The notes under the pieces: generated by a model | Databases searched by the model: none | What the model saw: the letters and a program-made list of their open reading frames with translations, nothing else | Told to the model about the DNA's origin: nothing | Part shown: positions 20,348 to 37,531 of the stretch, in pieces | Numbering within the stretch: position 1 is the stretch's first letter | Layout: every line of letters begins with the position of its first letter | Origin: Flavobacteriales bacterium BRH_c54 | GTDB taxonomy: Bacteria > Bacteroidota > Bacteroidia > Flavobacteriales_E > Vicingaceae | Direction of reading: 5' to 3' | NCBI GenBank assembly: GCA_000961845.1 | Contig: LADZ01000067.1 | Location: 1 to 47,225 of the forward strand | Length of the DNA: 47,225 nt | Program-made: the position numbers and the translations under genes

Positions 20348-20362
20348 ATGAAACGACCATGA
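20348..20362 (+). CDS. Micro-ORF encoding MKRP in leader copy 1
   Basis: ATG-AAA-CGA-CCA-TGA is identical in both leader copies. The TGA overlaps another ATG (20359), which opens a 24-codon frame ending at TAA 20431-20433, just before the receptor start. That longer frame is not kept in copy 2. Translation of the micro-ORF is a hypothesis only. Confidence 0.3.
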   Translation: MKRP

Positions 20363-20440
20363 TAAAGATTTTTACACAGGAAAATGATTATGTGGAAGTT
20401 ACATGTGTCCGATTTAATAAAATAGAAAAATAAACACATG
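20348..20440 (+). promoter_or_regulatory. Candidate structured leader RNA (copy 1) before TonB receptor
   Basis: This leader closely matches one at 36168-36262. Shared blocks are ATGAAACGACCATGA, AATGATTA, AGTTACAT and GATTTAATAA. Two helices can be drawn in both copies. In this copy, TTTTT (20369-20373) pairs with GAAAA (20380-20384) across a 6-nt loop, and CATGTGT (20402-20408) pairs with ACACATG (20434-20440), which contains the start codon. Both helices are kept in the other copy by compensatory changes. I infer control of translation initiation by structure. The ligand or trigger is unknown and I do not recognise the family. Confidence 0.6.
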
Positions 20441-22804
20441 AAAGGAATTTGGTCGATAGTTTTATTGAGTGTATTGTTGCTTTTAAGTGCCAACAATATA
20501 ACAGCACAAAATTATACAGTTAGTGGAACTATTACAGATGCATCTACCAACGAACCTGCTGTTGGGGCTACGGTTTATATTAAAGAAACCCGTAAAGGAA
20601 CAGCAACTAATGATAAAGGTTTTTATTCCTTAAGCCTTCCTAAAGGTAATTACACTTTAGTAATTTCATATATAGGTTTTAATGAACAAGAAATTCCTTT
20701 AGTACTTAACAAAAACACTAAAATTAACCGCAAAATTGAACCAGCTGTAATTACTGCTGAAGAGTTTACTGTGGTTGGTGAAAAAGAAAATCAGAATACA
20801 GATGAGGCTGTAATGAGTACAGTAGAATTAAAAATGGATAAGGTAAAAACATTGCCTGCTATTTTTGGTGAAGTAGATGTACTAAAAACTATTCAGTTGC
20901 TTCCCGGAGTGCAAAATGCAGGTGAAGGAAACTCCGGATTTTATGTTAGAGGTGGTGGTCCTGACCAAAACTTAATTTTGCTTGATGGAGCCACTGTTTA
21001 TAATGCTTCTCATTTATTTGGTTTTTTCTCTGTTTTTAATGCTGATGCTATTGATGAAGTGAAGTTGGTAAAAGGCGGAATGCCTGCTGAGTATGGCGGA
21101 AGATTATCATCTGTTTTAGATATTTCCATGAATAATGGTGATATGAAAAAATATAGAGTTGATGGAGGCATAGGTGTAATTTCATCCAGACTAACAGTAC
21201 AAGGTCCAATAAAAAAAGATACAGCCGCTTTTTTAGTGTCTGCCAGAAGAACTTATGCAGGAGATTTAGCACAGCCTTTTGTTAGCGACTCCTCAAAATT
21301 TAAAGGAAGTAACTATTATTTCTATGATTTTAATACTAAATTCAACTATATCTTATCCTCAAAAGATAAATTAAGTTTAAGTGGTTATTTGGGTAGAGAT
21401 GTGTTTACTTTTAAAAATTCTGATGATGGTTTTGAGTTAAATACACCATGGGGAAACAGTATAGTTGCCCTAAAATGGAGTCATATTTTTAATGATGAAT
21501 TTTATGGAGATGTTACTGCTTCTTTTACAGATTATAGATTTAAAGTAATTGCCAAACAAGATCAATTTGAATTTGGATTATACTCAGGAATCACTGACTA
21601 TAACTTAAAAGCAGATTATACTTATTTACCATCCATCCTACATAAAATAAAGTTTGGAGGAGCTTATATCTTTCATAAATTTACTCCTAATAGTGCAGAA
21701 GTAAGTTCTGCCGATGTTGAATTTAATACGGGAGATGTAATTATTAATTATGCTAACGAAGGGGCTTTGTATGTTTCTGATGAATGGGATATTAGTGAAA
21801 AATTTAAAATTCAACCTGGATTAAGATATACCGTTTACCAACACATTGGTCCATTTAAACGCTATATTAATGATGAAAGAGGTGCTCCTCTAGATACTGT
21901 TGAGTACGGTAAAAGGGAAACCGTAAAACTATATCAAGGATTGGAACCAAGATTTATTACCCGTTATGCTTTTAACGATAAAGCTTCTGTTAAAGCCTCG
22001 TTTACACAAAATTATCAATACATTCATTTAGCTACTTTAGCTTCTGTTTCCTTACCTACAGATCAATGGATACCGAGTACTGAGGTTACTAAGCCTCAAT
22101 TTTCTACTCAATATGCTTTAGGTTATTTTAGAAATATTTTTAAAAATAAATGGGAAACATCTGTTGAAGTATATTATAAGGATATGAAAAATCAAGTAGA
22201 ATATAAAGATGGCGCAATGCCTCAGGATGATAGTGGAACGAATGTAGATAATAACCTTACTTTTGGTAAAGGTTGGTCGTATGGTGCTGAGTTTTTCTTA
22301 AAGAAAAAAGTAGGAAAAATTAATGGTTGGATAGGTTACACCTTAGCATGGACAAAAAGACAATTTGATGATTTAAACAACGGGAAACCATTTTACCCAA
22401 GATACGATAGAAGACATGATGCTTCAGTAGTTTTTAATTACGAAATTTCCGACCGCTTAATTTTAGGTGCAACTTGGGTTTATGCTTCAGGAAATGCTTT
22501 AACACTTCCTGCAGCTCGTTATATTATAGAAGGACAAGTGGTAAACGAATATGGAGAAAGAAATTCTTACAGAATGGAAGCTTTCCACAGAATGGATGTT
22601 GCTTTGACATTAAAAGGAAAGGAAACAAAAAAGTTTAAATCGAGCTGGAATTTTTCTATTTATAACCTATACAACAGAAAAAACCCTTATTTCATTTACT
22701 TCTCTAACGAAGGAAATATTTACAATGGCAGTTTAGATATTAAAGCAAAACAAGTTTCATTATTTGGAATAATTCCTTCCATATCTTGGAATTTTAGTTT
22801 TTAA
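20438..22804 (+). CDS. TonB-dependent receptor with carboxypeptidase-regulatory-like domain
   Basis: A 788-residue outer-membrane active transporter. It has a signal peptide (to about residue 23), then a CarboxypepD_reg-like domain (about 25-105; YTVSGTITDASTNEPAVGATV). The plug domain at about 120-240 has TIQLLPGVQ, GFYVRGGGPDQNLILLDG and GGRLSSVLDI. A beta-barrel follows, ending in the aromatic PSISWNFSF. Substrate is unknown. A DUF4249 lipoprotein follows 11 bases later, a common pairing in Bacteroidota that resembles SusC/SusD-type partners. The candidate structured leader covers its start codon. Confidence 0.94.
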   Translation: MKGIWSIVLLSVLLLLSANNITAQNYTVSGTITDASTNEPAVGATVYIKETRKGTATNDKGFYSLSLPKGNYTLVISYIGFNEQEIPLVLNKNTKINRKIEPAVITAEEFTVVGEKENQNTDEAVMSTVELKMDKVKTLPAIFGEVDVLKTIQLLPGVQNAGEGNSGFYVRGGGPDQNLILLDGATVYNASHLFGFFSVFNADAIDEVKLVKGGMPAEYGGRLSSVLDISMNNGDMKKYRVDGGIGVISSRLTVQGPIKKDTAAFLVSARRTYAGDLAQPFVSDSSKFKGSNYYFYDFNTKFNYILSSKDKLSLSGYLGRDVFTFKNSDDGFELNTPWGNSIVALKWSHIFNDEFYGDVTASFTDYRFKVIAKQDQFEFGLYSGITDYNLKADYTYLPSILHKIKFGGAYIFHKFTPNSAEVSSADVEFNTGDVIINYANEGALYVSDEWDISEKFKIQPGLRYTVYQHIGPFKRYINDERGAPLDTVEYGKRETVKLYQGLEPRFITRYAFNDKASVKASFTQNYQYIHLATLASVSLPTDQWIPSTEVTKPQFSTQYALGYFRNIFKNKWETSVEVYYKDMKNQVEYKDGAMPQDDSGTNVDNNLTFGKGWSYGAEFFLKKKVGKINGWIGYTLAWTKRQFDDLNNGKPFYPRYDRRHDASVVFNYEISDRLILGATWVYASGNALTLPAARYIIEGQVVNEYGERNSYRMEAFHRMDVALTLKGKETKKFKSSWNFSIYNLYNRKNPYFIYFSNEGNIYNGSLDIKAKQVSLFGIIPSISWNFSF

Positions 22805-33589: not shown

Positions 33590-36139
33590 ATGATAGAAGG
33601 CGAAAAAATTATTCCGATTAATATAGAGAAAGAAATGAAATCTGCCTACATTGACTATTCAATGTCGGTTATTATATCTAGAGCTCTTCCTGATGTGAGA
33701 GATGGTTTAAAGCCTGTTCACAGAAGAATTCTATTTGGGATGATGGAATTAGGAGTTAGATCAAACGGTGCACATAAAAAATCAGCCAGAATTGTAGGAG
33801 AAGTACTTGGTAAGTACCATCCACATGGAGATACTGCGGTTTATGATTCTATGGTGCGTATGGCTCAAGAATGGTCATTACGTTATAAATTAGTTGATGG
33901 ACAAGGTAACTTTGGTTCTGTTGATGGTGATAGTCCTGCTGCAATGCGTTATACCGAAGCCAGATTACAAAAGATAGCTGAAGAAATGTTGGCAGATATC
34001 GATAAAGAAACGGTTGATTTTAGCTTAAATTTTGATGATACACTTCAAGAACCAACAGTATTACCTACAAGGATTCCTGCTTTATTATTAAATGGAGCAT
34101 CAGGTATCGCAGTAGGTATGGCAACCAACATGGCTCCTCATAACTTAACTGAAGTTATTGACGGAATTATTGCTTATATAGACAACAGAGAAATAGATAT
34201 AGATGGCTTAATGGAACACATAAAAGCACCTGACTTTCCTACAGGTGGAATTATTTATGGTTACCAAGGAGTAAAAGATGCTTTCCATACAGGTAAAGGA
34301 CGTATTGTAATGCGTGCAAAAACTGAATTGGAAGAAACAGATTCAGGAAGGTTTAGAATTATTGTAAACGAAATTCCTTACCAAGTTAATAAAGCTGACA
34401 TGATTAAAAAAACAGCTGACTTGGTAAATGACAAGAAAATTGATGGCATTTCTGATATTAGAGATGAATCGGATAGAAATGGAATGAGAATAGTCTACGA
34501 ACTTAAGAGAGAGGCTATTCCGAATGTTGTATTAAACAATTTGTTTAAACAAACAGGCTTACAAACATCCTTTAGTGTAAACAATATTGCATTGGTAAAA
34601 GGCAGACCGGTTGTGTTAAACTTAAAAGATATTATTGTCGAATTTGTTGAATTCAGACATGAAGTAGTAGTTAGAAGAACAACTTACGAATTAAGAAAAG
34701 CAGAAGAGAGAGCACATATCTTAGAAGGATTAATTATTGCTTCAGATAATATTGATGAAGTTATTAAAATAATTAGAGCATCTTCTAGCCCTGACGAAGC
34801 TCGTGATAACTTAATGGAAAGATTTAATTTATCAGACATTCAATCCAGAGCAATTGTTGAAATGAGATTGCGTCAGTTAACCGGACTGGAGCAAGATAAA
34901 TTAAGAGCTGAATACGAAAGTATTATGGCTTTAATTACAGATTTAAAAGACATTTTAGCTAACGAAGACAGAAGAATGCAAATCATTAAAGATGAATTGT
35001 TAGAAGTAAAAGCTAAATATGGCGATGAAAGAAGAAGTGTAATAGAATATGCCGGAGGAGATTTTAGTATTGAAGATATGATTCCTGATGAAACAGTTGT
35101 TGTGACTATTTCTCACTTAGGATATATCAAAAGAACTTCTTTATCTGAATACAAATTACAAAATAGAGGAGGAGTAGGAGCTAAAGGTTCTGCTACCAGA
35201 GATGAAGATTTCTTAGAAAACTTGTTTGTAGCTACTACTCATAATTACTTATTGGTATTTACTGAAAAAGGTAAATGTTATTGGATGCGTGTATTTGAAA
35301 TTCCTGAAGGTACGAAACAATCTAAAGGTAGAGCTATTCAAAACTTAATAAACATTGAAACTGACGATAAAGTGTTGGCTTATATTAATGTTAAAGATTT
35401 GAAAGATGAAGAATACATTAATAACAATTTTATCATTATGTGTACTGAAAAAGGTGTGGTTAAGAAAACTACCTTAGAAGCTTATTCAAGACCAAGAGTG
35501 AACGGCATTAATGCTATTACTGTTAGAGAAGGGGACAGATTGTTAGAAGCTAAATTAACAAGTGGTTCTGATGAAATTTTATTAGCACTTAAATCAGGAA
35601 AAGCAATTCGTTTTAATGAATCTACTACCAGACCAATGGGTAGAAATGCATCAGGAGTTAGAGGTATTAGGTTGGCCAACGAAAAAGATGCTGTAATTGG
35701 AATGATAGCTATAAATGATAAGAGTAGAAACATCTTGGTAGTTTCTGAAAACGGATATGGAAAACGTTCTGAATTAGAAGACTACAGAGTAACCAATAGA
35801 GGTGGTAAAGGTGTTAAAACCATTAACATTACTGATAAAACAGGTGGATTAATCGCTATGAAAGATGTGTCTGATAACGATGATTTAATGATTATTAATA
35901 AATCAGGATTGGTGATTCGTTTGGCTGTTGAAACATTAAGAGTAATGGGTAGAGCAACTCAAGGAGTAAGATTGATTAACCTAAAAGGAAACGATAGTAT
36001 TGCTGCAGTTGCAAAAGTTGAAAAATCTGAGGATGAAGATGAAGTGATAATTAATGAAATAGAAAATCCGGACGCTCCAATGGGTGATATTGAAACTGAC
36101 AATGGCAAGGATGTTGATATTTCTAACGATGAAGAATAA
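33590..36139 (+). CDS. gyrA: DNA gyrase subunit A
   Basis: Cuts and rejoins DNA as the A2B2 gyrase to introduce negative supercoils. The 849 residues begin with the breakage-reunion domain, including [18 protein letters not shown] and the catalytic Tyr121 in AMRYTEARL. The quinolone-contact region reads [12 protein letters not shown], with Thr82 at the E. coli Ser83 position and Asp86 at the Asp87 position. The C-terminal beta-pinwheel carries the GyrA-box-like [10 protein letters not shown], followed by an acidic tail. The acidic tail and GyrA box favour GyrA over ParC. The TPR-protein leader begins just after its stop. Confidence 0.95.
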
Positions 36140-36167: not shown

Positions 36168-36182
36168 ATGAAACGACCATGA
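36168..36182 (+). CDS. Micro-ORF encoding MKRP in leader copy 2
   Basis: Identical at every base to the micro-ORF of copy 1 (ATG-AAA-CGA-CCA-TGA). The overlapping second ATG opens an 11-codon frame here instead of 24, so only the short frame is conserved. It may be RNA structure and not a translated peptide. Confidence 0.3.
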   Translation: MKRP

Positions 36183-36262
36183 GTAAAAAATCCCTCATAC
36201 AAGGGAATGATTAATGGGAGTTACATCTGACAGATTTAATAATAATAAAATATAAACAGATG
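36168..36262 (+). promoter_or_regulatory. Candidate structured leader RNA (copy 2) before TPR protein
   Basis: Second copy of the leader found at 20348-20440. Helix 1 pairs TCCCT (36191-36195) with AGGGA (36202-36206) over a 6-nt loop, where copy 1 has TTTTT and GAAAA, so base changes preserve pairing. Helix 2 pairs CATCTG (36224-36229) with CAGATG (36257-36262), which contains the ATG. Copy 1 has CATGTG and CACATG, one G-C to C-G swap. The conservation next to an unrelated gene argues for a shared regulatory RNA. Function is inferred. Confidence 0.6.
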
Positions 36263-37531
36263 AAAAAAATACTGATAACAGCTGCTGTAATTGTTGGGTC
36301 AACAGTGGTATTTGCTCAAAAAAATCAAGTACAAAGTGCTTACAACTATAGTAAAGCTTTTGATAGAAACGGTAAATGCTCTGAATTACAAAATGGTTTA
36401 GAAGCTATTAATGCCGCTATACAAGATGAAATCACCAAAACTTGGGCTAAGACTTGGGTATATAGAGGAAACCTTTATTATAGTGTATTATTACCAACAA
36501 CAGATAAAAACTGTAAAGACCTTTATAAAGAAGCTTTAGATGAAGCTACTGATTCTTACTTAAAAGCATTGGTGCTCAATTTTGAAGATCCTGAGTTGAA
36601 AAAATTAGATTTAAACAAAGAGGATGGAAGTGATGTAATGAAGTTCTTCTCTGCTTTACAAAATAAAAGTAAAGTTGATGATGAGTCTTATACAGGGTTA
36701 ATTTTAGGAATGAGAATGCCCGGTTTAGCAGGAGAATACGCTAATAAAGGAATAGAAAACTTCCAAGCTAAAGATTACAAAAAAGCACAAGAGAACTTTG
36801 GAAAATCTATGATGTTAAATCAACTTGCCGGAAAAATGGACACGGTAATGATGTTTAATACAGCATTAGCTTCTGAATATGCCGATGATTATGAAGCAGC
36901 AAAACAATTGTACAATGCTTTAATTCAGTTGAAATACAATGTTGATGGTAACGGACCAAGTTTATATCAATCGCTTTCTAGAATTCACAAAAAGGAAGGA
37001 GACAACGAAAAATCGTTAGCAGTTTTACAAGCAGGAAGAAAAGCTTATCCAACCAATCAAGCATTAATATTTGAAGAAATTGATTATTATTTGCAAGCGG
37101 ATAAAGCTGAGGACGCATTAGCAAGTTTAAATACAGCTATTGAATTAGATGCTACCAATGCTTTTCTTTATTATGTTAGAGGAACTGTTCAAGAGAAACT
37201 AGAAAATAAAGACGCTGCTGTGTTAGATTATAAAAAATCGTTAGAGTTAGATCCTAAACAACATGATGCAGCTTATAACTTAGGTGCTTATTACTTTAAC
37301 AAAGGTGTTGATAAAATTAATGAAGCAAATGATTTGCCTTTAAGTCAGTCTAAAAAGTTTGAAGCAATGAAAGCCGAAGCTAAAAAAGACTTTGAAAGTG
37401 CTATTCCTTATGTAGAAATGGCAAACAAAGCAAAACCGGAAGATGGCGATACTGCTACTATGCTAATTAAACTTTACACTCAAGTAGGTGAGTACGAAAA
37501 AGCAAAAGAATTAAAAGCGAAATACCAATAA
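36260..37531 (+). CDS. Exported tetratricopeptide-repeat protein
   Basis: A 423-residue periplasmic or surface protein: signal peptide (cleavage near VFAQ, residue 20) and at least five TPR-like helical pairs. The clearest are AKDYKKAQENFGKSMMLN, NEKSLAVLQAGRKAYPTN, KAEDALASLNTAIELDATN and NKDAAVLDYKKSLELDPKQ. TPRs mediate protein contacts and no catalytic domain is present, so it is probably a scaffold. The partner is unknown. The start codon is covered by the candidate structured leader shared with the TonB receptor. A strong terminator follows. Confidence 0.85.
   Translation: MKKILITAAVIVGSTVVFAQKNQVQSAYNYSKAFDRNGKCSELQNGLEAINAAIQDEITKTWAKTWVYRGNLYYSVLLPTTDKNCKDLYKEALDEATDSYLKALVLNFEDPELKKLDLNKEDGSDVMKFFSALQNKSKVDDESYTGLILGMRMPGLAGEYANKGIENFQAKDYKKAQENFGKSMMLNQLAGKMDTVMMFNTALASEYADDYEAAKQLYNALIQLKYNVDGNGPSLYQSLSRIHKKEGDNEKSLAVLQAGRKAYPTNQALIFEEIDYYLQADKAEDALASLNTAIELDATNAFLYYVRGTVQEKLENKDAAVLDYKKSLELDPKQHDAAYNLGAYYFNKGVDKINEANDLPLSQSKKFEAMKAEAKKDFESAIPYVEMANKAKPEDGDTATMLIKLYTQVGEYEKAKELKAKYQ

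Follow-up and report, generated by a model that had tools for sequence, protein, structure and literature searches.

Why do two unrelated genes, one encoding a TonB-dependent receptor and the other a TPR protein, begin with the same leader of about 95 nt? Both lie in a 47,225-nt stretch of the genome of Flavobacteriales bacterium BRH_c54 (the stretch being the window, and the genome the host genome, G000), and an earlier note on this DNA had read the leader as an RNA whose second helix would hide the start codon. Both copies are where that note placed them. We find that the sequence is very probably a structured, non-autonomous mobile element of ~92 nt that inserts at start codons, and we set out below the evidence for this reading, its possible mechanism and the alternatives to it.

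Fold of the window copies and of the wider set

The two copies (Table 1) match a single covariance model, derived from 20 copies, over their full length, with E-values of 1e-14 (copy 1) and 3e-15 (copy 2) for a model that itself contains both. Their fold comprises a stem, P1, that pairs AAC-GA-CC(A) with (T)GG-GA-GTT across a GA/GA internal loop, an apical hairpin, P2, that is enclosed by P1, and a 3' helix, P3 (CATnTG/CAnATG), that contains the start codon. P2 and P3 are the two helices that the earlier note had described, and both are present; the enclosing P1, the ATGAA at the left end and ~46 further copies in the same genome were not part of that description. Folded alone, copy 2 yielded exactly P2 and P3 as proposed (z = -3.2), and copy 1 retained an intact 3' helix (z = -2.2), while predicted folds have the CAT strand pairing with the right ATG in both window copies and with the left ATG in a further copy (L206).

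Table 1. Positions of the element copies, their parts and adjoining genes in the window, and of the second, nested repeat in several genomes (genome:contig:position).
Feature	Position	Strand	Basis
Copy 1, from the left ATGAA through the right ATGAAA, 96 nt (90-nt insert by comparison with the empty site)	20348..20443	+	empty sites in G004, G002
Copy 1 left ATGAA, border repeat	20348..20352	+	sequence and empty sites
Copy 1 P1 5' arm AACGACCA (AAC, GA internal loop, CCA)	20352..20359	+	sequence
Copy 1 P2 5' arm ATTTT (helix 1 of the earlier note)	20368..20372	+	sequence
Copy 1 P2 3' arm AAAAT	20381..20385	+	sequence
Copy 1 P1 3' arm TGGAAGTT; GA/GA loop is GA/AA here	20393..20400	+	sequence
Copy 1 P3 5' arm / putative internal guide CATGTG	20402..20407	+	covariation
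Copy 1 P3 3' arm CACATG, contains start codon 20438-20440	20435..20440	+	covariation, folding
TonB-dependent receptor gene (plug and carboxypeptidase-regulatory-like domains), downstream of copy 1	20438..22804	+	
Copy 2, 98 nt (insert 92 nt)	36168..36265	+	empty site in G004
Copy 2 left ATGAA, border repeat	36168..36172	+	sequence and empty sites
Copy 2 P1 5' arm AACGACCA	36172..36179	+	sequence, folding
Copy 2 P2 5' arm TCCCT	36191..36195	+	folding
Copy 2 P2 3' arm AGGGA	36202..36206	+	folding
Copy 2 P1 3' arm TGGGAGTT	36215..36222	+	folding
Copy 2 P3 5' arm / putative internal guide CATCTG	36224..36229	+	covariation, folding
Copy 2 P3 3' arm CAGATG, contains start codon 36260-36262	36257..36262	+	covariation, folding
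TPR protein gene, downstream of copy 2, adjoins gyrA (33590-36139)	36260..37531	+	
Second repeat, ~50-58 nt	G000:C40:46042-46055 (L109); G000:C30:25212 (L105); G004:C9:257425 and 283153; G002:C10:131478; G003:C19 and C159		

Covariation extends well beyond the two window copies. At the variable P3 position (n-n'), 92% of 182 copies have a standard pair, versus 41% in shuffles (maximum 53% of 2000), where the shuffles ignore relatedness and the pair types nevertheless change within lineages. With C-G in 72 copies, A-T in 44, G-C in 42 and T-A in 4, the G-C to C-G exchange that the earlier note had seen between the two copies is real and holds across the wider set. For P1, positions 1, 2 and 3 are paired in 84, 90 and 68% of copies versus shuffled maxima of 59, 84 and 49%, all of these counts being anchored on conserved blocks rather than on a structure-based alignment, and the GA/GA loop is retained in 180/191 copies.

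An encoded product was discarded as an explanation, since no reading frame is conserved for a small protein or peptide (MKRP*, MKRA* or longer): copy lengths differ by single bases and the open frame differs from copy to copy. Comparison with Rfam 15 at the gathering threshold gave 0 hits on the window and 12 copy-bearing loci, in agreement with the earlier note, which had not recognised a known riboswitch; a permissive search with single copies returned chance hits only, and a group I or group II intron was rejected for want of a hit to the Rfam intron models.

Copies, empty sites and the start-codon target

Searching with the covariance model, we found 48 copies in the host genome, 6-28 in each of the five other genomes of its genus and at least one in 21/46 genomes of its family, most of the genomes compared being draft metagenome assemblies. 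An exact 16-base gapped pattern recovers 7 copies in the host genome, and a 17-base pattern finds copies in 5/5 other genomes of the genus and in 0/54 other relatives. A broader pattern matched at least 117 stretches in the one-genome-per-species GTDB collection; among the matches listed, almost every record carries the name of Bacteroidota or of a group within it (Marinilabiliaceae, Prevotellaceae, Dysgonamonadaceae, Paludibacteraceae, Proteiniphilum, Labilibacter, Prolixibacteraceae, Flavobacteriales and others), the cultured Labilibacter sediminis CG51 and the unclassified BMS3Abin03 are carriers too, and one GC-rich match (L288) looks like chance. The family thus reaches far outside the host species, the earlier note having named confinement to one species as grounds for doubt, and its distribution across the phylum is patchy, given that a strict pattern matched 4/395 genomes of a spread sample. 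Exact-pattern copies number 79 in G070, 32 in G072 and 32 in G075, with 0 for the reversed control pattern. Copies are near-identical inside single genomes and lineage-specific in sequence between genomes, and the 32 almost identical copies of G075 are, as judged from that likeness, a recent burst. No copy was matched in viral contigs or in phage and plasmid collections at the sensitivity used.

The genes that follow the copies are unrelated (TonB receptor, gyrA-linked TPR, nadA, cmk, kdsB, pheT, ddl, glycosyltransferase and others), so that of the earlier interpretation the structured, shared leader with covarying helices stands, and the idea of a leader or riboswitch common to a group of related envelope genes does not. 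Orthologous genes within the genus carry the element in one species and lack it, with clean junctions, in another. The clearest case is nadA, filled in the host genome (...AAAACAAGAA[93 nt]ATGAACAC...) and empty in G004 (...AAAACAAGAA|ATGAACGC...), where 147/150 upstream bases are identical, the insert measures 93 nt and ATGAA stands at both junctions, the right one being the start codon of the gene. Since ATGAAC follows this insert and the left border reads ATGAAA, the common border is at most ATGAA and the cut point could lie anywhere within it. Empty sites were also found for ddl, cmk, pheT and others and, in G004, for the TPR gene (...AAAACGATAAA|ATGAAAAAAATAC) and the TonB gene (...TTAAAATGAA|ATGAGAGG), the empty relatives of the latter reading ATGAG rather than ATGAA and so needing one extra base change.

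Empty sites alone do not distinguish gain from loss, and several copies are common to more than one species at the same locus, which means that the insertions span a range of ages and that some are old. We further observed ~26 head-to-tail tandem arrays with a spacing of 84-100 nt and a shared ATGAA joint, and in G070 many sampled copies sit directly after the right end of another copy. Taken together, unrelated downstream genes, presence and absence at the same start codon, tandem arrays and lineage-specific bursts are the behaviour of a mobile element. At two start codons (L020/L095 and L012/L065) the element is represented by different subfamilies in different species, which suggests repeated independent insertion. 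At the TPR gene after gyrA in G002 (L075), 11 nt at the start resemble the 3' end of the element and are possibly the remnant of a deleted copy; if real, this remnant would imply an older presence of the element and its loss in G004.

The position of the copies relative to genes is strongly biased. Counting as open a frame that runs for 60 codons or more from the right ATG, or has not yet closed, we found one in 70/77 copies of the host genome, G004 and G002, and in a wider set an ORF begins at the right ATG in 142/180 copies, about a dozen of the exceptions being tandem partners. The window holds 251 ATGAA sites on both strands, of which 13 lie at first ORF starts and 34 outside ORFs, so that ~28% of surviving insertions would be expected at start codons, an expectation that rests on one 47-kb window and assumes survival of intergenic and start-codon insertions only. 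In the recent burst of G075, an ORF of at least 50 aa follows the copy in 14/20 sampled cases, which makes start codons a strong preference and not a strict rule; part of the excess may stem from later loss of other insertions. The right end carries ATGAA in 182/191 copies, yet only 13/38 window genes start with ATGAA, and by the evidence of these borders the target is ATGAA and not merely ATG. The base before the left ATG in the G075 copies (L370-L389) is mostly T (TATGAAA), possibly an additional target preference.

An internal strand and possible routes of mobility

An internal strand, GCGAGTTCCATnTG, is the complement of CAnATGAAACGAGC, the sequence that arises where the element's two ends are joined, and the complementarity breaks only at the GA/GA loop and at one A.C or A.A mismatch. 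One strand could therefore align both borders, and we infer that GCGAGTTCCATnTG acts as a guide. In the mechanism that we propose, the guide, acting on single-stranded DNA or RNA, would line up both element ends with the ATGAA target, and an enzyme supplied in trans would cut and join. Because both borders are ATGAA and translation starts at the right one, the first codons of the host gene are preserved and it gains a new A-rich upstream region; P3 would then fold over the start codon in the mRNA, where it may dampen or tune translation, and the left ATG would be left over as a spare start and decay as copies grow old. That these features define a new, Bacteroidota-wide class of mobile element, which homes on start codons through a single junction-complementary guide, rebuilds the initiation region, stacks and leaves behind a start-codon helix open to co-option, is a tentative proposal to which we give slightly less than even weight.

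The search for a mobiliser returned no gene-carrying (autonomous, long) copy; 9/191 copies are without the right ATGAA, and those inspected by eye looked mutated. As universal partners, the Y1 transposase (PF01797) was set aside because one positive genome is without a match, and reverse transcriptase (PF00078) because it is missing from three positive, high-copy genomes. RAYT/IS200 genes were likewise rejected as carriers, no element copy lying beside them in the genus. The RAYT-like Y1 genes seen (L030, L034 and other RAYT loci) are flanked by palindromes of their own (e.g. GTTTGTAGCTACAAGC...) that are unrelated to the element. Weak RVT_1 proteins occur in G000, G020 and G070, and divergent reverse-transcriptase-like proteins of ~500 aa in several positive genomes (L365 in G000:C41, L364, L366).

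At the DNA level, a single-strand transposase of the HUH/Y1 (IS200/IS605-like) kind might recognise the folded element and cleave beside ATGAA, which would account for the fixed 5-nt border at both ends, the subterminal hairpin, the internal strand complementary to the ends and the orientation fixed by the target, and Y1 genes are indeed found in most positive genomes. They are also found in some element-free genomes, however, and in G020, which is 97% complete and holds 8 copies, no Y1 gene was matched; together with the different palindromes of the RAYT genes in the genus, this makes the route less likely than not.

Unlikely, in turn, is the interpretation of the element as a cis-regulatory leader or riboswitch, in which a ligand, protein or ribosome would toggle P3 and thereby control translation of the downstream gene. 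The covarying P3 does include the start codon, the CAT strand is able to pair with the left or the right ATG in a switch-like manner, and old copies in the host genome often have an altered left ATG (TTG, GTG, ATA, ACG) and a mostly intact P3. Moreover, where species have a copy in common, 22 comparisons showed changes at 6/330 sites of the guide and P3 arms, versus 76/884 in P1ext/P2 (Fisher p = 5e-6) and 80/1540 upstream (p = 0.006), comparisons that share species pairs. Counted in substitutions only, though, this signal is weak (6/330 versus ~3-4% elsewhere), the unrelated downstream genes form no regulon, and neither filled and empty versions of one start codon among close species nor tandem arrays and genome-specific bursts are expected of such a leader. 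For the mobile element, the same sequence comparisons suggest a host-level function of retained copies, and tuning of translation by P3 is plausible.

We regard an RNA-level route as improbable, whereby the element RNA would insert at the exposed start region of an mRNA and then be copied to DNA, or would be spliced out like a tiny intron. In its favour, insertion is aimed at the start codon on the sense strand, the GA/GA loop and the long stems with their covariation resemble RNA, and a single guide could pair with both borders in the manner of the internal guide in group I introns; against this, a self-splicing RNA of ~90 nt would be small, the element matches no known ribozyme family and three high-copy genomes yielded no reverse transcriptase. 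Finally, it is very hard to credit that nothing moved at all and that ancient shared leaders were lost independently or spread by ordinary gene conversion, a view to which the old, shared copies and the possible 11-nt remnant lend something, and which sits poorly with the precision of the junctions at many unrelated loci, copies that are near-identical within genomes beside lineage-specific sequences between them, different subfamilies at one start codon and tandem stacking.

Nearest known elements and consequences

In the open-access papers searched, we found no description of the element, and it falls outside each of the full definitions tested for the nearest known kinds. Elements of the IS200/IS605 family, and the short elements derived from them, combine a short fixed target with subterminal hairpins and internal guides that pair with cleavage sites. 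Our element resembles them in inserting at a fixed short target with a matching border (ATGAA, empty sites) but has no transposase gene, one guide for both ends, a repeated ATGAA and no consistent Y1 partner. Integron cassettes with attC form head-to-tail arrays that share a core site and are recognised as folded single strands, and the element likewise arrays head-to-tail with a shared core (ATGAA); unlike them, it carries no gene, showed no attC consensus that we noticed and has many chromosomal start codons as sites. The small dispersed repeats (SDR) of cyanobacteria, which Elhai in 2008 is said to have described as very small mobile repeats with no known enzyme, are reportedly shorter than the element and not aimed at start codons.

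REP/REPIN elements are small, structured, non-coding dispersed repeats mobilised in trans by RAYT (PMC3116915). The element is also small, structured, non-coding and dispersed, with patchy, lineage-specific sequences, but it differs in its length of ~92 nt, its ATGAA at both borders, its place at start codons and its fold, and the RAYT genes of the genus are not flanked by its sequence. The mitochondrial bypassing inserts of Magnusiomyces capitatus are many, short, located inside reading frames and skipped by the ribosome (PMC5009743); they share with the element a multitude of short inserts in or beside genes that the host tolerates without protein loss, whereas the element supplies a fresh start codon. 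The element is, in our assessment, a new family of miniature mobile element with a start-codon preference, of which the leader-RNA reading captures only the fold.

In some Bacteroidota, dozens of genes per genome, including the essential pheT and cmk, would on this reading owe their start codon and the region upstream of it to the element. If so, nature would offer an example of a parasite aimed at the initiation codon itself, which would also keep a supply of new translation-control leaders at hand and might serve as a tool for start-codon-directed insertion, and comparative searches for leader RNAs in Bacteroidota could be misled by its copies.

A second repeat of ~50-58 nt (AGTTCRTGARTACA...) lies nested within the element at two places that recur (Table 1), and one of its forms (CGAGC-loop-GCGAGTTCAT...ATGAAC) resembles a small-scale version of the element's own design.
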